64,000 bases of DNA from Sipunculus nudus. Taxonomy: Eukaryota > Annelida > Sipuncula > Golfingiida > Sipunculidae. The translations under genes were made by a program, and so were the position numbers. The DNA lies in the NCBI GenBank assembly GCA_026874595.1, contig CM049321.1, forward strand, positions 19,748,979 through 19,812,978. The letters run 5' to 3'. This document shows, one piece after another, positions 31,801 through 52,550 of this stretch (position 1 is the stretch's first letter; the number at the start of each line of letters is the position of its first letter). The notes beneath the pieces were generated by a model. The model was not told the origin of the DNA. It did not search any database and saw only the letters and a program-made list of their open reading frames with translations.

Positions 31801-34800
31801 TCTCAGCATATATAAATATATTCAAGGCCTCCACGTTGGCCTTTTGATGGCACTTTCTATGAAATGAGGATGAACATAAGAATGATGTTATTATTTGAAA
31901 ATCTGGATTTCAGGTTTTTATGCACAGGGTCATGACCTGTCATTTTTACATTACAGCAAATGTCAGAGGTCCTATGAAGATATTACCATTTTGCCAGTCA
32001 TGCAGCTGTGGAGTTTGAACCGCTTTGCCTTAACAGTAATACTCTGCATTTACCCTGGTATGACAATTACAGAAATTACTTGGTGTGCCAACTAATCTAT
32101 TATATCAATGTTTGATTGTTTTCCTACATAATTTAATTGATTCCATTATTTTTCCATCATCGTTCATAAACGATGATGTATGCACATCCAAAGAAGTCTT
32201 ATTATCCCGATAAATCATTCTATTTCTGTCTGATATATAAGAAAGACTGGACACAAACAGTGAAAAGCATTCAAATTGATCCTTGTGCAACACATGAGTG
32301 ACAACAACCCAGCTGTTATTTTGACCTTTCAGCTTGATGTACAAGGGAAGACCGACTTTACTAGAACAATAGTTTAGCTAAAGTCCTACACAGTAGATTT
32401 AACACTTTTATAGATGGCAGGGCTTGACATTAATGGTTAACTGCTTGCCCGTGGCAAGTGAAAATAGTGATAGGGCAACTAAAAGTCACCTCCTACTTGC
32501 CCAGTCGGGCAAGTAGGTCCAACACAAACCTTCACCACAGGCCTGAAAAAGGATGTTTGAGTTCTTGAATACAATCAATGATTTTTGTAGGGCAAGTAAA
32601 ACTTTATGCAAGGCAAGTTAGATGTTGCAAGTTCTTTCAAAAGTAAATGTTGAGCCCTGGATGGAATGATGGACCATTGTTCGTTTTATCTTTCAAACAT
32701 CAAACATGATTTTGCATCCGATCCTTACCACCATAAACTACAATATTAGATACCCAATCCCCTATTTTCATGAAAATTAAAAGTCATTTTGGATGCAACT
32801 GGATTTTGGCAATTAACAGAATATACTTACCTGGGATGGAACGGACGGTGGAGGTTCAATTCTAATGGACGGATCCCACTCCCCAGGTGGCAGCACAGTC
32901 ACTTGGTCGAGGAACTCATCAATTCCAGCCAACAGATCCTCTCTGTTTTTAGCTTTGTATGCAACATCATGGAAAATCTGTATAATTAAATACCAAAATT
33001 ATACTGCTATTGTCCATTTATACATGCATATGCCTTGTATAAAAAAAGATTATACCAAAACATTGATAACACAAAAATGATACTTAACCATATTAATGTG
33101 TTTCTTTTTTATTATTTTGTAGAGTATAGAAAGCGAAATTTGTTTCCTCATAAGAAGTCCTGCTACTTTTGCAGGAACCAGTTTAGCTCCACTGCAGGCT
33201 AGAACTGCAAGGTGTAATACACAAACAAAAGCAGCCTTTGCATTCAATTCAATTATAATGTAATTACACAGGTTGTCAATCAAACATTTTCCTCCTACTA
33301 TGAACTATACTAAGATCCCTAAACTTTGATCTTAAGAGAGACTCAAGTTTACATACCAAATATTTTAGGAAATATAACTAAATATTCAAATCATGTATGT
33401 TAAAATCAACAAAGTTTAGAATCATATTCAGTAAAAATGTTGATAAAATGTAAAAATAAAATAAATATGAAAATGCACCTCATCAGACATAAGTGTAGCA
33501 ATGGAGCGTCCGATTTCGTGGTAACGCTCCTTGTGACCTTGGGGTCCTAGCAACAGGAAAATGAAACGTGTTGGCACTGGAACTTCTGTCAAGTCTCCCA
33601 GCATCTCTGCTTTGGTGAGACGCACAAACGCAATGATCGGGTTGCTAAGGAAGTCCACCTCGCCGACCAGGATGTTGGAGGCTTCTGCTCCCGGAGGAAG
33701 TTTCTTCATGAAATGTTGGTTCACCTGGAAATGACAAATATAGCAAAAGTAATTACACCTGTATATATAAAATACAGTAAATAAATGTAAGATATATAAT
33801 TATATTGACACAAAATACAAGATACTGGATATTTAATAACAGATGGACTACAAAAAGTGATCAGTGCCCTCTAATGACAAACTGTTCATTGCTAGCAATC
33901 CTTAGTCATCATGTATATCAGTCTTAAATGATCATATAAGTCATTTATTCTAACACAAATGAAATCTAAATAATGCAAGGTTAATATCTGAAATTTTTAG
34001 GTGACAGACTTTGCATGACATAGCAGGGCAAATTTTGGCTCTCTTGAGTGATCAGAAACGTCACATAAAATGTCAAGTGTCATGGTACTTGTCAAGTTGT
34101 ATAAAACCCAGATTGTTTTGCAAATGGTAAAAATTTAGAGATAACCACTGATAAATAAAGACAAATATTGGGATTAAAGCTGAAAACTTATCAATAATCA
34201 GCAAATTTTCTTAAAATATATTGTGAATAATTAGTTATAATGTTTGATAGTTGTCCGATATCAACATAACTGCTAACTTGAATATTATATTGTTGTGATA
34301 AACTATATCATATGTTACCATGATGAGTGTTGGAGGTCTTGATATCGATCTTAGCCTCAATCTTGGTAGCCGTGACAAACATGACTCAGTTAGGACCCCC
34401 TACTGAGTCGCGACACAAGCCAAATTTAGAACCGCCCTGCAAGTCCACGCCACGCTTTATAACCGTATCTCCGCATACAGTCAGCAGGCAGAAATCTCCC
34501 ATACATGCAGAACAATATACGAATATATTGGGTTATAACGGAATATTTCACACACATGGTAGGTGTCTTTGGAGAGATAAGAAACTTATGAAAATGTCTA
34601 GTGGGTTTATTTGAAGTGACATGATACTTGTAAGCAATGAGGCATTGTCAAAAATGATGAAAATATTTGCATCCTCATTAACTCGATCCTCAGATTTAGA
34701 TGTCCAGGCACTCTGGCAAGCCAGTAATCTGGCCATAATGTCAGAGGGCTGATCTGGCACTACAATCTTGGCCTCGAGGCCGTGTCTCAAGTTCTGCCTG

Positions 34801-37800
34801 CATCGGAATGGCTTGACCTCAGATATGATTTGGGCAGAGGCTGGCTCCAGGCAGCTACAGAAGTATTTTGTATACATCTGCTTGGAATGTAGTCCCCTTT
34901 CTTTCTGCTATAAAAATTTTGCAGCTTTGTTCATGAAACATAATTGAAACAGTAATGGTCTCATAAGCTACACCTCATACCAGAATTCAGACATTGAATC
35001 CTAATTGTATGGAGTCTGATTTGGTTTGCAGGTGACTTAGCCTTGGCCTCGGAGGGCCGTGACTCTGATTCAGCCTTGTCCTCTGAGGGGGTTGACTCAA
35101 CTACAACACTGACCAAGACTAGTGACAAACCTTGTGAGATGACGCCGTTTCAGAGAGAGTCCCACCACTTTCTGTGCGGAGCAGATCCTTGGATGATCCT
35201 GATCCTTTAAGCTGCCCTGGTTCCGTTCGACTTTTGGATAATCCATCATCTGAAAAAATGCAGCAGACATTAACACGGGCACATATTACATATGGTTCAA
35301 ATGGATCATTACATTCAAGTATGTTTTACATATTACCATAGTAAAAAATGTCTGGCTTAGAATCAAGATAATGATGTTACTTTAAAAATCATGTTCAATT
35401 TAATCAATATATGCTCTCGAAATTACTTGGATACTAACATGGTGAGTTGAAGTTAACACATTGATTTATTTGTTAAATAAGTAAATAATGGATAAACTTC
35501 CTTGCTTATTGTTGTTTTTATATGACAGATGTAGATCTGCTTTTCCTGGTAAAAATACAATGTCATTCTTTGGCAGCACAAATGAGTTCCTTTAATTACA
35601 AGTAAAACAGTAGTGAAAGCCTTTCTTTCTTATGAATGCCTAGGCATACGATTAAAAATCAGGACAAAAATTCAATCAAATATTAATATATGTAAGAAAG
35701 ATGTAAAAATATTACAGGTGTACCACTTTACAGGTATAGCATAAAACAAGGAGCAGGCTGGAGGGAGGGTTTTAACATTACCAATAAAATATACCTGTGT
35801 GCCTGCTGAAACTACAGAAGAACGATAACTTGTTTTCAAAAGAGAAATCTCATCAAGCCAAACTCTAGCAAGCAAATGCAAAAAGTAAACACATCCTTGC
35901 ATTCCGAAAATTTCACAGAGACAAGGTTCGAGTGGAGCCATGAAAACTGCTCGATATCTGAGGCAAGCATCACACATGTACAGATTTTTAAAAGTTTGTA
36001 ACCCCTGAAATAAGACCACTGCTAAAAAGTGTGGTGTTGTATGAGATTGCTTGTATGTGATCTGAGTGATCTGTTTCAGACTTTGCGGAAGTGGTCTTAG
36101 TTCAGAGGTGGCCTTAAAAAGAAGGTTGGTTACAAAGAGTGGTTTTAATCATTGAAATATTCATAAATGCATAAGTACATCTGTATTGTCTAAAAAAAGT
36201 TTATAACACAGCAAATGGGTCATATGGAACAAATAAATATGTGATAATTCACACATGTGCATATATATAGACAGTGCTTACTGTACATCCTACTATATAT
36301 GTGAGCTTTATAGTTCTACATGACTGTGAATGTGAAGTGAAAGTACAAATTAAATTTAATAATAACATATTAACACAGGTGCTTTCTTGAGTCAGAACAG
36401 TTTATATTGTTAATAATAATACTAAACAAGAGCAGGTTTACACTGAAGGGATCATTTAAATTAAATCAACTGAAAACTTCTTAAAAATCTATGTCATGTT
36501 ATTTTCCTTTTATTTGTATTCATATTTGTATCAGTTTCTGTTTTCTGAAGCAATCAATCCAACAGACTAATCTGAATTTTATTCAAATATGACTTGAAGA
36601 AAATTTGTATTGTATCATTAATACCTCAAATATTTTTTTATATATGCAACAACAAATCTATTATGTGGCATACCACATGAATGTCTCAAATAAAAATATA
36701 AAGTACACAATGTGAAAATATTAAATAAGATATCAAGAACCTATAGACACATCAAACTGATTTATAAGTATCTCATTCAGTTTATAAATGAAAATGTAGT
36801 AAAATTCATTTATGATAACATTTTAGATCTCATTTAATTGACTGGGAGTACAAGCATATGCACTATTTTGAAGAAATAATAAAGGCACTGATAATGACAG
36901 TAATAATAATATATTAATAATTACAACGCTAACAAACATCATTAGACTTGAAAAAACACTATAATACTGTAAAATGCCATGATGACAATGTAGAAACCAA
37001 ACCTTTTCACATCCAAAAAATGAATAAGATGAGAAAAACGACAAGAAAGCTTGGCAGCCATTTTCCCACACAGGCTAAAGATATATAACGTTTTTGGATA
37101 TACCAACACAGTGTACTGAATAATATGATAAAACATATTTATATACCGTGATTCATGACCACACTTATAATTATCAAATCATGTGAACACATCCAGGGCC
37201 ATGCACTGTCATTCCATGGTTTATGCAGTCTACAAATAATATTCATATAGTACTACAATACTATAGTCATCTGTCCCACACCTTATCCAATATTATATTG
37301 TTCTAGTTGGCATGTATTTCAGTATCTAATGGTGATAGAGCACTAAACACACTGTCATTGTTTAATTGATATATGCTAAATGTTCAATGATTATTTCAAG
37401 TTGACTATAATGGATATCTAAATTATCAAGAATAACATAATTCTATGATCATCTGGTTTTAACTGAATGGCAAATGATTTTGAAAATAATATATGAAGAA
37501 TATTCATCAAATTCCTGTAAAAAATAAAAAAAAAATCCAGAATAATAAAGCTTACATGCCAGCCAGTTCGTTTTCAGAGATGGAAAAGAAAACATTTTTT
37601 AAATATGGAAACTGATACATTAGATTGAGATATATATATGAAATTTTTATTTTACAATTCTGATTCTCAAATTACAATAATTAACTTACCAAACTGAAAC
37701 TTAATTGTTATATTTCATATTACAGGAATCAGGATTTAGCAATCCATGAATATGAAAGGCCCATTTTTTTCTTGGCATTTGGTATCGCATTGTTGAAGCA

Positions 37801-40800: not shown

Positions 40801-43800
40801 TTGGAGGTCAAATCTTTATTCCATACAGCTTTGGAACGTCAAAGGAGAAAAAAAAGTATTTTTTTTTTTTACAAAACAAATCCTTTTTCCTTAATTACTT
40901 AGTTGTCAAAGTTGATTAAGCCCATAATGATTAGGCTTCACATTTAAATCATATTATATCCTAAATTCCTTCTATATCCTTACACTAAATCTTCTGGAAA
41001 ATATCAAGATTAATCCACACGCAAAGTTAGACAATATATTGTTACAAAGGCAAATAGTTGAGGGGAAAAATCCTGGGCCGATCCGGGAGTCGAACCAAGG
41101 TCGGTGGCGCACAAGTCCGGCGAACCAACCGCTTCGCTAGCAAAGCAAGCTTCACTAGCAAAGCAAGTTTCACTAGGGAGACAGTGCGGTCCGCTTTTAT
41201 GTGCACCCCGTAACAATATACTTGAGGGTCTATTACATATACTTATTAAAGTTAGGAAAAAATATGACAGGTGACCTATATGAGAGTGACCAACATCTGG
41301 TTTTCTACTACAAACATCTACTACATCAAACCTGTCTACAGGAACAGGGGGACAGGAGCTGGGCTTACCATGGCCATGATGATGGTGGTGGTGGTGGTGA
41401 TTGGATCCATTGGCTGAGATCAGAATATTCAACATCATTTGCATATTTGCATAAATTATCATAATTTTTTTTAAACGTTTACTCTCCAAGGATCCAAACA
41501 GAGTCTGGCAGCTTGACGACCAGTAAAAGAAGGGAGTCTCTTCATTCCGTGTACAAATCTGACAATTTCCCATACACATAAAATACTATATCACACAAAT
41601 CCACACTCAAGCTGTTAATTCAAACTGTATCTTGTTTCTCAGAAAACTGCAAAATCACTTTGTCATGTAGAAACAAATGCACTAATCATATCCTTACCCT
41701 GAAAAAAAAAAGACAATGGAAACATGGATTTAGGATTGTAGATCCCGGTATGAAACTCTGAAACTTGTGGTTCTAAAACCATTCTTGAGTTCTATTTTTT
41801 TTTTTAAATCTGCCCATCTTATTAATAAACTATAGCTCTGCTTTTGGATCCACATGTTCTTTGACAATATTTGTGTGTGGATGGGGTACCTTGGAAACTG
41901 GTGTATTCTAAATGTATTGGCCTACCCACAGAGTAGCATCTAGAAGAAGAGCTCGGCAAATTATTTTTGGGAAATTTTGCAGTATATCGTATAAAAAGAA
42001 CACAACATTTAAACATCCTTAAACATTCTGACAAATTGTTGGTATTATCCAGCTAAAATGATATGAGGTACTATTTACTCTTTGTAACATCTTTCTAATC
42101 CATTTTCCTCTGTAAATCTTAATTTCATCTGTTTGCTTTCACAACCTGATTATATTTTTAAGCACATACATAACACATAATCTGTCCCTTGTTTCTTTTA
42201 ATTTTCTAGGCTTTGGCATATGTGTTCTTTGAATTTTATATAAGTATTTATGTATTACCTGTCAGTCAAAAAAATAAATTATAAACAATAATCATTTCTC
42301 AAGGACACATCAGATTGTTACCATTAAGCATTCTGTATAACAATATTTGAAATTCTGCTTTAAAGGTTCTGGTACGGTTTGAACCAGGACTACTAGCTAT
42401 ATACTGGTAGTTAATAACTTGCGCACCAGGCTATGTCTACCCCTGCCATCATTACTTTCTATTTCATGTTAAATCAAAGTGTTATAACTGACTACCTGTA
42501 AAAGTTTTAGTTTTCTAAATTTATATGGAGACAAAACTTGGCCAATTCACCCTCTAAACTGATGTTAACAAAGATATACATATCATTTTTATATATCTTA
42601 CATGAAATTTGTCCTATTTGTGTTTAATACTGAACTTTACTGGTCATTTCTTTTCCAGTAAGTAAATATAACAGTGTTCACACCATAAATGCTGCCAACA
42701 CTACTGAAACTGTCATGTTAACATATATCAAGGAATTATATTTTTTACCACATTTACTCTAAATTGATTACAAGTAATGCCTCTATTAGTTTTGCAGGTA
42801 AATTTTAGTACTGAAAGGTATTTCACAGAAAAATTCTAAGTGTAAGAAAATATTTATATTTAATGTATATATATATATAAACAATTTATGCAAATTATAT
42901 GTAAATGAAGCTGTGCATCACACAGGACTAAGCTATGGTGGCATAAAAGCGAGAGCTCGAACTAGTGTATGTACTGGCGTCGCCCTAAATGCAACTGGCT
43001 TTGAAGCTTTCAAATTCAAATATTGTCGCCCTAAATACAACAGGCTCTGAAGCTTTCAAATTCTAAAATGTCCATTCCCGCTCAAAACATATTTATATAC
43101 GTTACCGTGTCCAAATCTAGGAAAATGTAGGAGATGATGGTGGTGATGATGGTGGTGATGTAGACTATGTTGGTGTTGCTGACAAAGTCCATGCTCCAAA
43201 GCTAATAACATTTGTTTAACGGTTAATACACTGTATCATACAGTCACTGCTAATCACTCAGATATATCAAATTTCGACATAGCAAGTTAACTTCTTTATT
43301 TGTTATGCTTCAAATGCAGATGACTTTTAAGATTAAGATAGTTTTAAGCACAGGTGTTTTGAAATGATGAATACTAAATTTACATGAAATTATGTCTTTA
43401 TCACAAAATATTAATGCACCTTGTTAATGCATAAAAACTGCTCCAGTCCAGTAAGAAGAATCTTATTATCATTTGAATTATGAGAGGCCATTAAGTTTAT
43501 CCAACTACCTCTCAATTAGGAGGATAATACATATGTTACTTATCACTGAATTGTTAAGAAAATTGATTATTTAAGATAAAATGATACTAGGATATGATTT
43601 GAAATGTCAGTTAGTACATAAATTATCTACCGTAAAATCTCCACTTAAAACCGCGGTTTAATCAAGAAATTCAAAATCTTGAAATCAGGTTGATCTCCTG
43701 AAAGCACTGTGCGGTTTATACTAGAAGGGTTTCCTGAATATCTTCCTGACAGTCATCGTTTTTGGGCCGGCGAGTGAGCGATAATATTGCAACTTTCAAA

Positions 43801-47641: not shown

Positions 47642-50600
47642 CAGCGTTTGCATACAGTAATGGGCACATGATTACAAGCAGTTTATAATCTTAAATGTGA
47701 CCTTGGGAGAGTAACTATTCATGGCAAGATTTCAATATTTCTTTATGCTAAGAAGCATAAGATCCAAATAACTACAAACGGACCACTTTTTATTTTTCTC
47801 TTTTATGTTTGGTCTGTTTAACCATGGGATCAGATACTATACCTTACTTTTAGGAAGCATGGATCTTAAAATATGTTGTCCTCATTTTTTTATGGTGCCT
47901 ACATGGGCCTATTACAGATGAATTTGTTATCTTTAAAGTGTTATATAATACAATATTTTCCTCCTTTTTTTCAATTACCCCAGTCTGAAATCTTAAGTCC
48001 TTATTGGTGAAAACATCAACACAATTTTCAATTCAGGAAATTAAGAGAAGTGCCACATTTAAACTTTTTGTTGAGCAAAGTGTAATCTAGGGAAGCTCCC
48101 TTAAATATATTATATACAAGAGCATCGTGAATGGGAAAAAAAGCCAAATCTAACCACAAAACTGCAATAACAAACAGCACCTGGCTGAAAGTTCTAAAAG
48201 TAAAATGGAAGATGCATTAATCATCAGCATCCCATGCTATCCCATGATGCATTTGACTACCTTCATCACTGCCGTTTCCCACAGTGATGCGTGGCGGACC
48301 AGACGTGCCAGGAATAGCCAAGTGTTCGGCCGAATAAGATTGAGAGTGAGAGAGCTCTGGTTATGGGTAACAGAGAGAAGACAAAAATAGAAAACTCAGA
48401 GTTTGGAAAAATCAGAGAAACAGTCATTCCAGTAATAAGTTGAATACAAGGATCAAAGAAATTTTTAGTGAAGTCTTTTATATAAAGAACCAATTAAATA
48501 TAATATAATATAATATAATATAATATAATATAATATTTTAAATGAACCCTTCAAGCACAAATATGACAACTCAATTATACTCTTAAACATGGGGTCCTTT
48601 ACCTTCTGAAATCACTTAGAGAACACCAAAAAATTAAAAATTGTTTCAAGGGGTCCTCATAATTATTCACACAATGACAGAATGTACACATAGAACCGAT
48701 CCACTATCACTTATAGGTTTTAATTTATGCACTGATTCATCTATGGGAGACTTCTTGCTTTAAGTCTTTAATTAATAATTTTGCTTTTTCTTTTAATTCG
48801 AAAGTCCTGGAGTAACTTTGTTCACATTTTGTTTGGTGTTCTCTGGTTTAAGTTGCCAGATTGTGCAACAACAAAAAATTTTCATTAACAATTTATGTTG
48901 ATTGATAATTAGGTATGTTTTTAAACATTTTCTCAATAGTTTGATAAATGTTATCTCTGAAAAATATGTTTAAAGGATGCAATATATTTTATCAGAAGAA
49001 GAAACTGTCTTTGAAGAAAAACTTACGATGAAGCACTCTGGGTGATAAGTAGTCTGAATAATAGAGTAGGTTAAAACAAATAAACTTACTAAATAAATAA
49101 ATAAAGATTATCATGATCAGTAACTTCTGGGATGTTTTGTATGGCTAAACAATGTTTATTTTTACATAGCAGTAGAGTAAATAATATATTCATGTTTGTT
49201 TCATAAAACTGGAGACTGAGGATTATGAAGTTTTATTCAATGTCAAACTTAACCATGCAACTACAGCAGTTTATATCACATAAATTAGAAGTATACATGT
49301 ATATATATTAATAGGTTAATGTCCTTCTAAAAATTTATGTATACCTGTGTAACATAGCTTTATCTTATGTTCACATAATCATTAGGACAATGACTTGTGG
49401 CTGGCATACTTGCAAGTTTCAATTGACCAAAAAAACACTAGAAATTATGACAATGAATGATATGTTATGTAACAGTCCTCCTGACTTTAATCCGTTAATC
49501 ATGAAATTTATAAATGCATAAAATTATTTTATTCACCAACATATATCTCTGTGATAAGGTAACCATGGTGATATGCAGACCTGCATCAATATATTTCTTC
49601 TTTGATGTTGATTGCTCAAAATGCTTTTTGAGAAAAATTGGTTTGGGTCAGAGAGTTATGGTTTGGGTCTTTCTCGAGTTATTGTAGAGCAAAGTAGGTA
49701 AGAACTGAAATTTTCTTAACATACACTTCAAAACAACAGAAAGAAGTTCATTAGGTTATCATGGAGAAAAGTAGGTGAAATGATTTTATAATTGTAACAT
49801 AATTTTCAATTGAAAACAAAATCAAATTTAAGATTAAAACAGGAACCAAACTGTTAGATTAAAATTGAAAACTGACTTACAATACAATGCCCTGTTACGA
49901 TACAATATACTTGAAACTACAAAAAGGTAAGACATATGAATCCAAATTGCCAAAAAATAAGAAAACTCTCTGCAGGTATTTCCTTTGGCAGATAATGCAA
50001 GTAATAAAAAGGAAAACATAACAGCAAAGTCTTTATTTTGCTATACAATTTGTATTTCTTTTATTTTTATTTATTTTTTATTAATCTATTGCACAACTTG
50101 TGTGAGTAGGTAGACCTGATTAATAGAGAGATATGATAAAACCAATAATTTCCTATATAAAGCTTTAATCTAAGGGATTATAAGACTACATAATACCTCT
50201 TTGGAGACTACAACCAATACCCAAGTGTTCATGTAGGGCTATTTTTACAGTGACATTATGGAAAACCACAAAATCACAGGGCATATTAAACAAATATGTA
50301 CTGGTGTTGTTACACAAAATACAGAACCCAAGACTATAAATGTATATAGCAGTGGCTGTTTCCTATTCTCAATCATATACGTCATAAAAGAAGAAAATTT
50401 ATATGACTGCCTAAAATTGATAAATTTATTGTTCAGAAAACATTTTTGTCAGAAGATGCTCACCTTTGTGTTCCAGTTTCTTCTCAGAGTGTTTTTTGCC
50501 GATCTCAGCAAGTGATCGGATCAGGGGCAGCCCCTTCTTCTCATTATGATTTGATTTGTTGTGTTGGTGACGATGGCGGGAGAGCAGGGCGTCACGAACC

Positions 50601-52550
50601 AGCTCCTTTTTCGATTCCTCCAAGTGTTTTGATGCTACCATATTGTCTAAAACCAAGTCTGAAAACAAAATGGTTAAGTCACAAGGTTAAATGTAAAATA
50701 ACATTTATAAGGAACGCAAAAAATTGATAATCATTACCAACTTTTACGGTATTAACCATCTTAACAGGCGTATAATAATAAGTAAAACATTTACAACAGT
50801 ATTATCACAACAGCAAAACAGATGCATGAGGCACTATTAAATATTATGTACAGCAAATTCCCATCATGCTAAAGTCCTCAGAATCCAGGATTCTGGATTT
50901 TGCAGGTGTCATTTGAGATACTTACTGCTTAGGATCCAGATCCCTACAATCTGCTGTCTGGATCTAAACCCCTGGTTCTAGATCCATACCTATTTCTCCA
51001 AGGGAGAAACATTTTCTTCTATTTCCAAAGACCTAATTTTCTGTACATTGGCATCAGGCATACAAGGACATACAGAAAACAGTATATGTTATTTCTTAAA
51101 CAGGAACATGAATTTGTAATCTGTAGGCAGGAAAAATTATATACTTACATAAAATAACTGATCTTTTCTCTATGATTCCTCACATAAGGAAAGACCAAAT
51201 GAAATTGTTATTTCCAAAAGTAAAATAAAAGGTTCTGTAATTAATAATTTAAAATATGCGCATACGATAAAATATTGACAAACCTGCAACCTGGAAAATA
51301 TTGTTTGCGTTCATATCCAGCATGACGGTACCACTGAGGATGCCTTTACGTAGTTCAAACAAGGAGTGCAGGGACAGCGTGGCCACATGGGGTTTGGACC
51401 ACCTTTCTCCCCCCTCTTCCACGTCCTCTTCAAATTTTACCCATCTGAGAACAGAATATGGCTTCAATGATTACCAATTATTTTGAGAAGTACACCAAAT
51501 AAACTCCACTTCAGTCAGACAAATAGCATAAACAAGAGCACTGCAAATGGTGCATAATATGCCAATTGCATAATTTGTGACCTCTGACCTCATTAAATAT
51601 GCATAAATTTTTATGAGAATTTAAATTTGGTGAAAAACTCTATTGGTAAATGTGTATGTGTTCATGAAAATCCATAGGATTTTTGGTAAGTCCCCTCGGT
51701 GCCTCCAATGTGTGGTGACCTCTGACCTCATTAAATATGAGTTGATTTTGCTGGAAATTGAACTAAGTGAGATATTAATTGATTAACACATCTTTTGAAT
51801 TTGATCAAAATCAATCATATTCCTCGTAAGTTATCGCAGCTACACCACAAAGTAGTCTATTGACCTCTGACCTTATTTTATACATGGATTTTGCCCATGA
51901 TGGAACTCGGGTTAGATGATATATTGGTAGTTATGGTGAGGTTCGTGAAAATCTATCAAAGCCCTAGTATGTTATCACGGCGATACTAAAAGGACGGACA
52001 GACAGATGGTCAGGGGTATACCACAATACATCCCATCATAGACGGGTGTATAAAAAGTGGCTGTCATAAGGTGTAGTGATTATATTATGCACAGCTATTA
52101 ATTATATATATAGTATGAAAGGAAATATTTTGGCACTAAGTGACTTTGACTCCTTCAAATTTTGGTAACATATAAATGATATTTGCAAACTCCTGGGGAA
52201 TTCATATGAGGTAATTTCAAGCATTTCTGGCATAAAATGAGTGATTTTTCCCCCTAATTCTTACTGATTAATCATACAGAAAAAGATGATTAATTTATTT
52301 TCATGCAGGAAAATTGAAACAAAATCAGCTCTAGGGGTAAAGTATGACATATTACTTGAAAAAGATTTTAAGTTTTAAATCCTCTCATGTTAACAGCAAT
52401 ATTACCTGGCAGTCTCTTTCCATTCAAGGTCACCATCATCTCCAACAGACCGCAACTCGTCCATCTCGCAAAACATGTCATGGGCCTTATGGGCTTCATC
52501 ATCGTCATCCTGACCAAGGAGGAACTGCACACGCTCAGAAGGTGGGGTAG
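1693..52550 (-). CDS. SLC4A7/8/10-like: SLC4-family Na+-coupled bicarbonate transporter, whole locus (spliced, 5' incomplete)
   Basis: Integral plasma-membrane transporter moving HCO3-/CO3 2- with Na+, used for intracellular pH control and acid-base transport. Twenty core exons (52406-52550 down to 5371-5512) splice into 1094 residues with consistent phases; two cassette exons and a second terminal exon add variants. Visible order: N-terminal cytoplasmic domain (residues ~1-380; landmarks [77 protein letters not shown]), membrane domain (~385-950; [72 protein letters not shown]), then a charged tail starting at WLDDIMPES. The landmarks match Na+-coupled SLC4 proteins, not AE-type exchangers or SLC26. 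Family members are usually 1000-1250 residues, so about 100 N-terminal residues are missing. Sequence alone cannot tell electrogenic from electroneutral, or Cl--dependent from Cl--independent, transport. The family call is very secure; the subtype is not. Confidence 0.96.
2933..3076. repeat. Exact 72-bp tandem duplication
   Basis: Two adjacent identical copies, 2933-3004 and 3005-3076, starting ATTAATCATCCCAATCAACT and ending CCAACAGACAC. Perfect identity implies a recent duplication or an assembly artefact. Confidence 0.95.
5137..5142 (-). terminator. Candidate poly(A) signal AATAAA for the proximal isoform
   Basis: AATAAA on the minus strand about 230 bases after the TGA of terminal exon 20a, a plausible distance for a short 3' UTR. 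Such hexamers are common by chance in AT-rich DNA, so it is only a candidate. Confidence 0.3.
5371..5512 (-). CDS. SLC4A7/8/10-like: Terminal exon 20a: basic tail ending in a PDZ-ligand-like TKL
   Basis: 142 bp, acceptor CTCATAG|GAAA, stop TGA at 5371-5373. After split Arg 1048 it encodes 46 residues: [46 protein letters not shown]. Poly-Lys at this place is typical of the family, and T-K-L at the end fits a class I PDZ ligand (S/T-x-hydrophobic), as in the ETSL end of vertebrate relatives. The first of two alternative C-termini. Confidence 0.92.
5513..8359 (-). other. Intron between exons 19 and 20a
   Basis: Noncoding. It contains a repeat-like segment richer in GC at 7140-7420 and a stretch at 6290-6345 with AAGTCAAAGGTCA. 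No exon-like ORF with splice sites was recognised. Confidence 0.6.
7140..7420. mobile_element. Repeat-like segment ending in an imperfect palindrome
   Basis: Sharply higher GC than its surroundings. It carries AGGTCA half-sites at 7238-7243, 7245-7250 and 7251-7256 and ends in GTATCCGCAAAACTTCG then TTTTGGCGGATAC, an imperfect palindrome near 7386-7415. It looks like a transposable-element remnant; class unknown and left boundary approximate. Confidence 0.4.
8360..8571 (-). CDS. SLC4A7/8/10-like: Exon 19: C-terminal cytoplasmic tail, common part
   Basis: 212 bp, acceptor CTTTCAG|GAG, donor AAAAG|GTATTA. It encodes residues 978-1047: [66 protein letters not shown]. The part NISEEM(S/A)(R/K)TA-W resembles NBC tails. 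It leaves two bases (AG) that are completed by the first G of either terminal exon. Confidence 0.95.
8572..15775 (-). other. 7.2-kb intron between exons 18 and 19
   Basis: AT-rich intron with no supported ORF. Its upstream end in the gene (right side) holds a diverged tandem duplication of about 590 bp (14610-15720). A G-rich patch lies near 11490-11540. Confidence 0.65.
14610..15720. repeat. Diverged tandem duplication, period about 592 bp
   Basis: The copies match in order: GGTGATATTTACTGTTAAAT at 14745 and 15337, then CAATCTGAAAAATTAAAAT, then AAACT(G/C)TGATCCATTT, then TTTTATACTCC near 15083 and 15704. The right copy stops about 50 bases from the donor of exon 18; no second copy of the exon is present. 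Confidence 0.85.
15776..15919 (-). CDS. SLC4A7/8/10-like: Exon 18: last TM helix and start of cytoplasmic tail
   Basis: 144 bp, phase 0, acceptor GAACAG|GTG, donor GAAAGA|GTAAGT. It encodes residues 930-977: [52 protein letters not shown](I/L/V)MPES is the tail motif discussed as a carbonic-anhydrase contact in SLC4 proteins; a charged, probably helical run follows. Confidence 0.97.
15920..16602 (-). other. Intron between exons 17 and 18
   Basis: It includes GACCCATGGGTCATGACGCT near 15977, a motif that recurs near 56262 (ACCTATGGGTCACGACGCTCAG) and so marks a dispersed repeat. Otherwise nothing recognised. Confidence 0.5.
16603..16779 (-). CDS. SLC4A7/8/10-like: Exon 17: late TM segments
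   Basis: 177 bp, phase 0, acceptor ATTTCAG|TTC, donor CTTATG|GTAAGA. It encodes residues 871-929: [59 protein letters not shown]. The VP(L)xxxH(L/I)FT and LW(x)IK...FP(L/M)M landmarks are conserved. KQIKQIS is more polar than the Ala/Ser-rich equivalent in vertebrates. Confidence 0.96.
16780..18113 (-). other. Intron between exons 16 and 17
   Basis: Mostly AT-rich noncoding sequence plus a MITE-like element at about 17560-18035. Confidence 0.6.
17560..18035. mobile_element. MITE-like element with C/G-rich ends
   Basis: Left end TATCTCCCCTCCCTGTAGGC; right end GTCTCCCCCCACGGGAGGGG followed by GGACATAATA. The right end alone folds into an imperfect hairpin, and the ends are roughly complementary. 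No ORF. Boundaries and class are uncertain. Confidence 0.45.
18114..18182 (-). CDS. SLC4A7/8/10-like: Exon 16: re-entrant/TM segment [13 protein letters not shown]
   Basis: 69 bp, phase 0, acceptor CTTTCAG|TTT, donor GTGCAG|GTTAGT. It encodes residues 848-870, [20 protein letters not shown] plus flanking residues. Almost invariant in SLC4. Confidence 0.97.
18183..18881 (-). other. Intron between exons 15 and 16
   Basis: About 700 bp of AT-rich sequence; nothing recognised. Confidence 0.6.
18882..18954 (-). CDS. SLC4A7/8/10-like: Exon 15: TM10 region
   Basis: 73 bp, acceptor TTTAACAG|G, donor CTGAAG|GTATGT. It completes Arg 823 and encodes residues 824-847, [20 protein letters not shown] then GVLK, the conserved EQRVTG segment and its helix. 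Confidence 0.96.
18955..19510 (-). other. GC-AG intron between exons 14 and 15
   Basis: Starts GCAAGT after exon 14 and ends TTTAACAG before exon 15. No other feature seen. Confidence 0.85.
19511..19689 (-). CDS. SLC4A7/8/10-like: Exon 14: TM9, followed by a GC donor
   Basis: 179 bp, acceptor TTACAG|AAA. It encodes residues 764-822: [54 protein letters not shown]. To keep Arg 823 and the frame of exon 15 the exon must end at AG|GCAAGT, a GC-AG intron; the nearest GT would break the phase. Confidence 0.96.
19690..20251 (-). other. Intron between exons 13 and 14
   Basis: AT-rich; nothing recognised. Confidence 0.6.
20252..20410 (-). CDS. SLC4A7/8/10-like: Exon 13: TM8 with [10 protein letters not shown]
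   Basis: 159 bp, phase 0, acceptor TTTTTTTCAG|CCA, donor CTTTTG|GTATGT. It encodes residues 711-763: [53 protein letters not shown]. The Asp of FMDQQIT lies in the substrate-coordinating region of Na+-coupled SLC4 transporters (known from the family). Confidence 0.98.
20411..22084 (-). other. Intron between exons 12 and 13
   Basis: It contains a T-run joined to a G-run at about 21718-21743 and AGGGTGTCCGATAAAAAAGT near 20970, which resembles a Tc1/mariner-type end, but no partner end was found. A 108-codon minus-strand ORF here has no family resemblance. Confidence 0.5.
22085..22198 (-). CDS. SLC4A7/8/10-like: Exon 12: TM7
   Basis: 114 bp, phase 0, acceptor TTTACAG|GTG, donor TTCAAG|GTGAGT. 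It encodes residues 673-710: [42 protein letters not shown](A/S)V then a hydrophobic helix and PKL(K/H)VP match the family. Confidence 0.97.
22630..23716. repeat. Dispersed repeat array, copy 1: three ~300-bp units
   Basis: Units repeat CCACCCA(G/A)TGGTTCC, the half-site block (AGGTCAAGGTCA), GAGATATCC and TTGTGCAGC(A/T)GGTACAGAC. The half-site block recurs at 22935, 23237 and 23536. The array ends GGACAGCTTGGGTGA...CATCAGCCTAAGGGCTGAGG. It matches the array at 62076-63419 from end to end. Confidence 0.9.
24091..24784. mobile_element. 694-bp non-autonomous DNA element with GGCCACACA termini
   Basis: Left end GGCCACACACAAAAAAAATG, right end (reverse complement) GGCCACACAAAAAAAAGTAT: inverted terminal repeats that continue to TTGTTCT / TTATTCT. 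It is flanked by TTA on the left and TAA on the right, so TA or TTAA-like duplication is possible. No transposase ORF. Confidence 0.75.
24823..25088 (-). CDS. SLC4A7/8/10-like: Exon 11: extracellular loop, Cys cluster, TM6
   Basis: 266 bp, ending CCAAG|GTGGGT. It encodes residues 585-672: a Thr/Ser-rich stretch with NVT and NIT sequons, [49 protein letters not shown]. The C-x-K...GC-GHH pattern matches the loop that carries conserved cysteines and glycans in NBC/NDCBE proteins. A second AG six bases upstream (exon starting 25094) would add Val-Thr in frame, so the 5' edge is ambiguous. Confidence 0.95.
25089..26781 (-). other. Intron between exons 10 and 11
   Basis: It holds a possible SINE-like segment near 25180-25410 (a degenerate B-box-like GGGTTTGTGTCGTG), a G-run at about 25414-25428, and two similar segments near 25830-25880 and 26030-26090 sharing (GCCGCC/TGCCTCC)ATTTTTTAATG. 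No exon recognised. Confidence 0.45.
26782..27080 (-). CDS. SLC4A7/8/10-like: Exon 10: TM4-TM5 and start of the large extracellular loop
   Basis: 299 bp, acceptor TATTTTCAG|A, donor ACAG|GTAGGT. It encodes residues 485-583: [55 protein letters not shown], then a Pro/Asn-rich loop with NYTCICYPP and NTT. NYT and NTT are N-glycosylation sequons in the extracellular loop. FKKLIH sits where relatives carry the K-(M/L)-x-K-type stilbene (DIDS) reaction site, but the motif here is only partial. Confidence 0.97.
27081..28260 (-). other. Intron between exons 9 and 10
   Basis: It holds one GGCC-ended MITE (27388-27661); the rest is AT-rich with nothing recognised. Confidence 0.6.
27388..27661. mobile_element. 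274-bp MITE with GGCCAAAAAA termini
   Basis: Left end GGCCAAAAAAAGAATGGTCC then CAGGCAC; the reverse complement of the right end is GGCCAAAAAAATAATAGGTA then TGGTTCCCAGGCAC. Same terminal sequence as the element at 53478-53789. No coding capacity. Confidence 0.8.
28261..28394 (-). CDS. SLC4A7/8/10-like: Exon 9: TM2-TM3
   Basis: 134 bp, acceptor CTTGCAG|GCT, donor TGCAA|GTGAGT. It encodes residues 440-483: [20 protein letters not shown] then [23 protein letters not shown](L/I)[10 protein letters not shown] on TM3 lines the ion-binding cavity in SLC4 structures. Confidence 0.98.
28395..29293 (-). other. Intron between exons 8 and 9
   Basis: AT-rich; a 133-codon minus-strand ORF (28696-29097) is low complexity with no recognised domain. 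Nothing else seen. Confidence 0.5.
29294..29468 (-). CDS. SLC4A7/8/10-like: Exon 8: entry to membrane domain, TM1
   Basis: 175 bp, acceptor TTTTTCAG|A, donor CACATA|GTAAGA. It encodes residues 382-439: [62 protein letters not shown](I)xD(I/V)KRKAPF is the family signature ahead of the first transmembrane helix. Confidence 0.98.
29469..31236 (-). other. Intron between exons 7 and 8
   Basis: The right part (30500-31180) has noticeably higher GC than the usual intron sequence and includes a short palindrome AGGCCCTGGCATAGGGCC near 30550, perhaps an old mobile-element remnant. No coding signal. Confidence 0.4.
31237..31367 (-). CDS. SLC4A7/8/10-like: Exon 7: linker before the membrane domain
   Basis: 131 bp, acceptor TTTGTAG|TCATC, donor GGAAG|GTCAGT. 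It encodes residues 338-380: [20 protein letters not shown], then a Glu run ([10 protein letters not shown]) and LVRTG, with split Arg 381. The variable spacer between cytoplasmic and membrane domains; the ending RTGR before FGGL matches the family. Confidence 0.93.
31560..31760. repeat. Dispersed repeat, copy 1
   Basis: Shares in order with 47270-47470: (CTT)GTTTG/TTTGGGGTTC, CCTTCAAA(A)CAG, GGCT(G/A)CCTC(A/G)CTAAA, a C-rich spot, then AAATTTAAGCT, TTGTTGTA, CTCTATAAT and TTTGGAA(G/A)TGGAGAAC. Element class unknown. Confidence 0.7.
32418..32655. mobile_element. ~238-bp CAGGG-ended element with 5-bp target duplication
   Basis: Left end CAGGGCTTGACATTAATG; the reverse complement of the right end is CAGGGCTCAACATTTAC. 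GATGG flanks both sides. The interior holds the palindrome ACTTGCCCAGTCGGGCAAGT. CAGGG ends recall hAT-like elements, but a 5-bp duplication is not the usual 8 bp. No ORF. Confidence 0.75.
32831..32977 (-). CDS. SLC4A7/8/10-like: Exon 6: N-terminal cytoplasmic domain, C-terminal part
   Basis: 147 bp, phase 0 both ends, acceptor TTATACAG|ATT, donor CCCAG|GTAAGT. It encodes residues 289-337: [49 protein letters not shown]. Nearly the family consensus at this position. Confidence 0.98.
32978..33478 (-). other. Intron between exons 5 and 6
   Basis: AT-rich; nothing recognised. Confidence 0.6.
33479..33724 (-). CDS. SLC4A7/8/10-like: Exon 5: N-terminal cytoplasmic domain, second half
   Basis: 246 bp, phase 0 both ends, acceptor TTTCCAG|GTG, donor GATGAG|GTGCAT. 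It encodes residues 207-288: [65 protein letters not shown](V/I)LVGEVDFL and [10 protein letters not shown] are diagnostic of Na+-coupled SLC4 members. Confidence 0.98.
33725..35130 (-). other. Intron between exons 4 and 5
   Basis: The right half is GC-richer, with a motif like CTTGGCCTCGAGGCCGTG recurring in variant form near 34355, 34768 and 35043. ORFs here show no known domain. Origin unknown. Confidence 0.4.
35131..35249 (-). CDS. SLC4A7/8/10-like: Exon 4: Ser/Gly-rich linker
   Basis: 119 bp between TTTTTTCAG|ATGATGG and CACAAG|GTTTGT. It takes two bases to complete Asp 167, then encodes residues 168-206: [39 protein letters not shown]. This low-complexity, Ser/Thr-rich segment is likely flexible and phosphorylatable. 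Recognised by phase (it joins exon 3 and exon 5 exactly) and position rather than by strong conservation. Confidence 0.87.
35250..41368 (-). other. 6.1-kb intron between cassette exon B and exon 4
   Basis: AT-rich. It holds a diverged tandem motif ACCATACAATTTGCATAAAT with ACATGTGATTTTCAT near 37970-38160 and, at its upstream end in the gene, a tRNA-like SINE (41080-41220). No other exon recognised. Confidence 0.55.
41080..41220 (-). mobile_element. tRNA-derived SINE head
   Basis: On the minus strand TAGCGAAGCGGT (41128-41139) fits a Pol III A box and GGTTCGACTCC (41086-41096) is a near-perfect B box at tRNA-like spacing. Upstream (minus sense) is a short tandem of TTGCTTTGCTAG(T/C)GAAG. The 3' limit is unclear; it lies in the same orientation as the transporter gene. 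Confidence 0.75.
41369..41413 (-). CDS. SLC4A7/8/10-like: Cassette exon B: His-rich linker insert (15 codons)
   Basis: 45 bp, acceptor TGATCTCAG, donor CATG|GTAAGC (a strong donor). In phase it reads Ala-NGSN, eight His, GH. Length and phases match cassette A, so A, B, both or neither can sit between exon 3 and exon 4 in frame. Both exons end in Gly-His after a His run although their flanks differ, which suggests a shared role or an old duplication. A tRNA-like SINE lies about 150 bp further downstream in the gene. Confidence 0.74.
41414..43105 (-). other. Intron between the two His-rich cassettes
   Basis: It contains a tRNA-like segment (42370-42440) and otherwise AT-rich sequence, with a repeated phrase CGCCCTAAAT(G/A)CAAC(T/A)GGCT near 42980 and 43026. 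No further in-phase exon recognised. Confidence 0.5.
42370..42440 (-). mobile_element. tRNA-like Pol III head, likely SINE relic
   Basis: On the minus strand TAGCCTGGTGC (42423-42433) fits an A box and GGTTCAAACC (42376-42385) a B box. A convincing full cloverleaf does not form, so a relic SINE is likelier than a functional tRNA gene. Confidence 0.55.
43106..43201 (-). CDS. SLC4A7/8/10-like: Cassette exon A: His-rich linker insert (32 codons)
   Basis: 96 bp between an acceptor GTTATTAG|CTTTGG and a donor CACG|GTAACG. In the phase left by exon 3 it reads [16 protein letters not shown], nine consecutive His, then LLHFPRFGH, with no stop; 14 of its residues are His. Its length is a multiple of three and both flanking phases match, so it can be included or skipped without shifting frame. 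Cassette inclusion is inferred from splice signals and phase. The weak acceptor tract and the chance of a plain CAC/CAT microsatellite keep the confidence moderate. Confidence 0.66.
43630..45677. mobile_element. 2.05-kb DNA transposon, TA-flanked, non-autonomous
   Basis: Perfect 25-bp inverted terminal repeats: left begins CCGTAAAATCTCCACTTAAA (then ACCGC), and the right end is its exact reverse complement. TA lies immediately outside both ends (43628-43629 and 45678-45679), as for Tc1/mariner/pogo-type elements. Subterminal GTGCGGTTTTA repeats occur at 45559, 45633 and 45651. No intact transposase; the interior is CpG-richer than the intron and includes a 14-bp-stem hairpin. Confidence 0.88.
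43997..44032. repeat. Perfect hairpin, 14-bp stem
   Basis: ATGCGGCGGTATCC, an 8-base loop AGGACCCA, then GGATACCGCCGCAT. It lies inside the TA-flanked transposon. It could form a strong stem in RNA or single-stranded DNA. Confidence 0.95.
47270..47470. repeat. Dispersed repeat, copy 2, with C-run
   Basis: Related to 31560-31760 (same motif order); here the C-rich spot is expanded to a C homopolymer at about 47340-47354. Confidence 0.7.
47580..47640. repeat. TA-rich microsatellite
   Basis: Interrupted then pure TA repeats. Simple repeat only. Confidence 0.95.
48495..48536. repeat. (TAATA)n microsatellite
   Basis: About eight near-perfect copies of a 5-bp unit. Confidence 0.95.
50464..50658 (-). 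CDS. SLC4A7/8/10-like: Exon 3: N-terminal domain into the variable linker
   Basis: 195 bp, acceptor TTTTCAG, donor AAAG|GTGAGC. It encodes residues 103-166: [20 protein letters not shown] (conserved dimer-arm region), then a basic His/Asn-rich run ([15 protein letters not shown]), then [22 protein letters not shown](D/E)IGKK marks where mammalian SLC4A7/8/10 enter their alternatively spliced linker. The exon ends one base into a codon, the phase shared by both His-rich cassettes and by exon 4. Confidence 0.96.
50659..51283 (-). other. Intron between exons 2 and 3
   Basis: Contains a GATCC-rich stretch (50880-51000) with the loosely repeated word (T)GGATCTA/CAGGATTCTGGAT. Nothing else recognised. 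Confidence 0.5.
51284..51444 (-). CDS. SLC4A7/8/10-like: Exon 2: N-terminal cytoplasmic domain core
   Basis: 161 bp between CTCAG|ATGG and GCAG|GTTTG. It encodes residues 49-101, [20 protein letters not shown] followed by [20 protein letters not shown], among the most conserved stretches of Na+-coupled SLC4 proteins. Split codons at both ends join to exon 1 (Arg 48) and exon 3 (Asp 102). Confidence 0.97.
51445..52405 (-). other. Intron between exons 1 and 2
   Basis: Its left half is a diverged tandem repeat with TGACCTCTGACCT blocks (51540-52050) ending in a GGACGGACAGACAGA tail typical of a repeat end. The rest is plain. Confidence 0.6.
51540..52050. repeat. Diverged ~140-bp tandem repeat with TGACCTCTGACCT blocks
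   Basis: TGACCTCTGACCT occurs at 51578, 51716 and 51861, each followed by a (C)ATTAAATATG / TTATTTTATACATG-like stretch; GTGAAAATC(T/C)AT-like phrases intervene. The tail is AAAGGACGGACAGACAGATG. Probably a mobile-element relic. Confidence 0.75.
52406..52550 (-). CDS. SLC4A7/8/10-like: Exon 1 (first visible): start of N-terminal cytoplasmic domain
   Basis: 145 bp, entered after an acceptor ...TTAG and left through AG|GTAAT. It begins with two bases completing a codon, then encodes residues 1-47: [11 protein letters not shown], an acidic DDDDE run and the end LEWKETA. PS(Q/E)RVQF(I/L)LG opens the conserved cytoplasmic core in this family. There is no start codon in frame, so at least one further upstream exon must exist. 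The basic/His-rich segment that precedes this point in vertebrate relatives was not found in the window. Confidence 0.95.

Follow-up and report, generated by a model that had tools for sequence, protein, structure and literature searches.

The window, by which we mean the whole 64-kb stretch of DNA analysed, carries a gene transcribed from the minus strand, from high to low coordinates, which by its sequence is an SLC4 bicarbonate transporter of the Na-coupled, electroneutral, NBCn1/NDCBE-like type, with transport activity as a prediction. Its exons score above the cut-offs of the Pfam families Band_3_cyto and HCO3_cotransp and are ordered along the window, and a spliced query of the linker region, from which the two segments discussed below were omitted, matched NBCn1 (9ovr, 2.4e-49) and NDCBE (5jho, 1.9e-44) and, more weakly, NBCe1 (6caa, 1.4e-36) and AE2 (2e-22). 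The motifs described as conserved in the N-terminal domains of NBCs are ETARW(L)KFEE, HxH, and VTVLP (PMC5608694), and the frames of the host gene contain ETAR and WVKFEED, HRHQH, and DQVTVLP. The last base of the upstream exon is 50464 (the exon ends in CAC AAA G and is followed by gtgagc), the downstream linker exon begins at 35249 after tttttcag, and the 15.2-kb intron between them contains two His-rich segments, A and B (Table 1).

Table 1. Features of the SLC4 gene around the intron that holds segments A and B, in the order of transcription
Feature	Coordinates	Strand	Description and basis
Upstream constitutive exon, SLC4A7 exon 8 equivalent	50464..50658	-	65 aa; phase 1 end; aligned to NBCn1 (9ovr) and NDCBE (5jho)
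HRHQH, counterpart of the conserved HxH that binds Zn2+ (H167-X-H169 of human NDCBE)	50561..50575	-	Alignment, and motif from PMC5608694
Putative cassette exon A	43106..43201	-	Encodes 32 aa in 96 nt, with nine His in a row; enters and leaves in phase 1; weak splice sites
(CAY)9 run of A	43134..43160	-	Two perfect 12-mer copies CATCACCACCAT plus CAT
Probable cassette exon B	41369..41413	-	Encodes 15 aa in 45 nt, with eight His in a row; enters and leaves in phase 1; strong splice sites
(CAC)5(CAT)3 run of B	41376..41399	-	CAY repeat scan of the window
Downstream linker exon, SLC4A7 exon 10 equivalent	35131..35249	-	40 aa, ending SSHK
Following exon, core of the Band_3_cyto domain	33479..33724	-	Frame list, profile match, and alignment

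Other SLC4 genes occur elsewhere in the genome. Six of them form a tandem array at C7:18433250-18673723, mostly with a spacing of ~40 kb, and the one that was tested best matches NBCe1; because five of the C7 copies are nearly identical in score, the array suggests that a bicarbonate transporter of electrogenic type was recently amplified. Two further genes are found, one on C12 and one at C16:45.05 Mb, the latter of which reads like an anion exchanger. The same assembly holds nine nearly identical COX1 genes of bacterial type on contigs C60, C61, C62, C66, C72, C74, C75, and C89, at least one of which is over 3 Mb long. The best matches in public genomes of the one copy tested are 52-58% identical and scattered over many phyla, and these contigs represent a bacterium without close sequenced relatives, possibly a symbiont or a contaminant.

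Both A and B are open frames bounded by canonical AG and GT dinucleotides, and their inclusion would be neutral to the frame. Because all junctions are in phase 1, the phases permit neither segment, either one, or both, so that the protein could gain 0, 15, 32, or 47 residues. The initial annotation had described two in-frame segments of 96 and 45 nt, alike in entry and exit phase and encoding nine and eight His, which can be read directly from the DNA of the window, and the four insert sizes that it proposed are borne out by these lengths and phases. It had also called the two segments interchangeable, and had listed an initial Ala and a final Gly-His among their shared features. When A and B are aligned to each other, however, the similarity is confined to the CAY repeat; the shared ends are therefore not homology, and since homology is absent beyond the repeat, interchangeability, and with it mutually exclusive use, loses its support. 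For the same reason exon duplication was rejected as the origin of the pair, whose His runs may be recent slippage repeats. A genome search found both segments, with their flanks, to be single-copy, and their reading as part of a transposon or of a duplicated gene was discarded, there being no genomic copies beyond this locus.

Splice sites were scored with donor and acceptor models that combine known sites of the host gene (14 donors, 15 acceptors) with generic values, and the thresholds of the splice controls were chosen after the data had been seen. Segment B, which is preceded by atctcag, followed by gtaagc, and translated as ANGSN-H8-GH, has an acceptor of 8.3 bits and a donor of 8.8 bits, both inside the score range of the gene's known sites, and ranks first among the intron's 86 open candidates of compatible phase. 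The stretch upstream of its acceptor is free of AG for 66 nt, as is true for 4% of the AGs in the intron, a count that is independent of the splice model. We regard B as probably a genuine cassette exon. For segment A, which is preceded by ttattag and followed by gtaacg, and whose C-terminal end past the His run is LLHFPRFGH, the acceptor scores 1.4 bits, near the bottom of the known range of 0.0-12.7 (leave-one-out), and the donor 3.4 bits, below the gene's known minimum of 3.6; it ranks 59th of the 86, and its AG-free stretch, counted in the same model-independent manner, is 27 nt. The equal quality at first ascribed to the two exons thus gives way to a strong B and a weak A. Likewise, the proposal of His-rich cassette exons in the linker of variable region 2 holds well for B by its sequence, and weakly for A by its splice scores.

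The foremost alternative is accordingly that only B is exonic and that A is a degenerate CAN/CAY microsatellite of the intron, which by chance has an open frame with AG before and GT after it, a reading that we place only slightly short of an even prospect. When the same His repeats were placed at random in the non-coding parts of the window, 19% of the insertions gave some candidate and 4.7% equalled the summed score of A, which in addition to its poor sites consists in its repeat of a perfect 12-mer duplication. The His codons outside the pure run of A are equalled in 6/33 control repeats, and His enrichment beyond the run was for this reason dropped as a separate piece of coding evidence. 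On the other hand, A lies 1.7 kb from B and shares its orientation, frame, and phase, such repeats are rare in the genome, and optional exons usually have weak splice sites. We retain A as a putative cassette exon, tentatively.

The location of the segments can be compared with the optional cassettes of mammalian SLC4 transporters. Our alignment to human NBCn1 is interrupted between residues 260 and 369, which correspond to cassette II. In SLC4A7 this cassette is exon 9, between exon 8 and linker exon 10, whereas cassette IV, the equivalent of SLC4A10 cassette A, is exon 11, in the next intron along (PMC4507446), and NDCBE has no optional cassette besides its variable N- and C-terminal ends (PMC4664831). 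Taken together, the break in the alignment, the map of exons 9 and 11, and the cassette-free NDCBE make the insertion site that of SLC4A7 cassette II only. The initial annotation had placed the segments at the spliced linker of SLC4A7, SLC4A8, and SLC4A10 alike; the first of these stands, as cassette II, while SLC4A8 has no such cassette and that of SLC4A10 lies one intron downstream. The region is a variable, disordered linker, in which optional cassettes alter activity (PMC4507446, PMC4664831).

Cassette II (beta) of NBCn1 is like A and B in family, in intron position, between the IGKKHS exon and the variable linker exon, and in being a frame-neutral insertion into variable region 2. It differs in that it is a single exon of 123-124 aa whose splicing is proven, whereas A and B, of 32 and 15 aa, are rich in His and known from DNA alone; its calcineurin-binding segment (the last 57 residues) is by itself longer than A or B. 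Cassette A of NBCn2 (SLC4A10) and cassette IV (gamma) of NBCn1 resemble our segments in being small (30 and 20 aa, respectively) and in belonging to the linker region, but they are inserted one intron downstream of the A/B site, with the linker exon on one side and the VDLHFMKK exon on the other, and we know of no His runs in either. No published description of a poly-His cassette in SLC4 was found in a literature search that was thin on subscription journals, and by their sequence A and B would be a novel form of the already known SLC4 linker cassettes.

What makes such a cassette interesting is the adjoining Zn2+ motif. The residues H167 and H169 of NDCBE align with the first two His of HRHQH, and since this motif is carried by the upstream exon, a His cassette would be ~32 residues away from the Zn2+ site. 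The N-terminal domains of human NBCs bind Zn2+ via the conserved surface HxH (~2 uM by ITC for NDCBE), this binding is weaker at lower pH, and NCBE and NBCn1 depend on Zn2+ in their transport, which it lowers (PMC5608694), findings that strengthen the metal or proton role suggested in the initial annotation. If included, B would contribute 9 His and A 14 to the vicinity of HRHQH, and both runs are longer than the 5 His from which a tract is counted; binding of Zn2+ and Cu2+ has been measured in human tracts of this kind (PMC5756558). The HxH of NDCBE, NCBE, and NBCn1 (PMC5608694) is a metal site built on His, in the domain that would receive A and B, but it is constitutive, structured, and surrounded by acidic neighbours, whereas A and B would bring long homopolymeric His into a disordered loop. 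The human homopolymeric tracts (PMC2644819, PMC5756558), which like A and B have at least 5 His and in which Zn2+/Cu2+ binding was measured, belong mostly to nuclear proteins related to DNA or RNA and are not characterised by optional splicing, whereas the host of A and B is a transporter of the plasma membrane.

Because the Zn2+-binding HxH adjoins the insertion point and His tracts bind Zn2+ and Cu2+, a splice-dependent response to metals or protons would be the most specific explanation of the cassette, and tuning of this kind is plausible, although we infer every step of it beyond the sequence. It is also quite conceivable, if somewhat doubtful, that A and B are real exons whose His tract has no role in metal or pH sensing and is either a neutral disordered spacer or the carrier of a trafficking or partner effect. 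Cassette II of NBCn1 works in such a way, via calcineurin binding and raised activity (PMC4664831), His tracts can serve as targeting signals (PMC2644819), and repeat expansion is cheap in a disordered linker; nevertheless, this alternative leaves aside that two His-rich segments adjoin a known Zn2+ motif in a single domain.

The window holds just two (CAY)>=8 runs, both on the sense strand and both inside this intron. In the genome (1.43 Gb) there are 1,867 overlapping 8-unit CAY matches on both strands, and in an intron of such size ~0.002 sense-strand loci are expected, against the two observed. No CAY runs of >=4 units were found in the stretches examined of the other SLC4 genes (the C7 array, C12, and C16:45.05 Mb), some C7 copies being represented by short loci only. 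We regard it as unlikely that neither segment is exonic, that is, that both are CAY microsatellites of the intron with coincidental splice-like flanks. Such a reading would agree with the slippage type of the repeats and with their clustering, since 4/29 repeat loci on contig C1 carry several runs. It would also agree with the antisense strand of the 64 kb, where one phase-1 candidate scores as high as B, the His run being disregarded; on that basis ~0.2 splice scores of B grade would arise by chance per intron of such length. Given one B-grade candidate in 64 kb of antisense sequence, the weight of the case for B lies in the coincidence of its splice sites with the repeat, and there the controls oppose the microsatellite reading. 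Random insertions equalled the summed score of B at a rate of ~0.0002 (~0.02%), and among 37 other genomic CAY>=8 loci, six of which have any phase-compatible open candidate, one attains the summed score of A, none that of B, and none equals either segment at acceptor and donor alike.

It is very unlikely that B opens a longer exon with a downstream donor (e.g., 41413-41222, 64 aa) instead of a 45-nt microexon, for although the frame stays open far downstream and a donor at 41222 scores 4.9 bits, the donor at 41369 scores far higher and the open frame enters an apparent repeat element near 41220-41060. The stop-to-stop frame that spans B (41585-41010, minus strand, 191 aa) is the longest listed in the window, and the stretch that it enters at ~41060-41220 is richer in G+C and has the appearance of a tRNA-derived short repeat. 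The second-best phase-compatible cassette candidate in the intron, at 41698-41757 on the minus strand, encodes 20 aa, is not rich in His, and either illustrates how noisy the splice scan is or is a further optional exon.

We thus lean, with somewhat more than even confidence, towards a probable cassette exon B and a possible A in an SLC4 intron, with a likely splice-dependent tuning by metals or protons. This reading starts from observed properties of the DNA (sequence, frame, phases, splice-site quality, position, and rarity) and adds to them that the segments would be used as exons, that this use would be optional, and that the His would act through metal or proton binding. Lying in the intron that separates the counterparts of SLC4A7 exons 8 and 10, B and possibly also a weakly spliced A would, on inclusion, preserve the frame and extend the N-terminal domain by a disordered, His-rich stretch, in its variable region 2 and past the HxH motif. 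The likeliest role of this stretch would be to tune, depending on splicing, how the regulatory domain responds to protons and to divalent metals, above all Zn2+. A bolder version, in which two optional poly-His exons extend the constitutive Zn2+ site and splicing sets the zinc and proton gating of pH recovery, making the transporter a splice-tunable metal/pH sensor, seems to us quite unlikely.

If the preferred reading is true, the hotspot that carries cassette II in mammals would have received, independently, a module of different chemistry, namely a His tract next to an established Zn2+ site. The locus would then offer a clean test of the control that a disordered linker exerts over SLC4 transport, as well as a test of intracellular zinc as a physiological regulator of bicarbonate transport. 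For the animal itself, the cassettes may have a bearing on pH control, and possibly also on mineralisation, if it is a calcifier.
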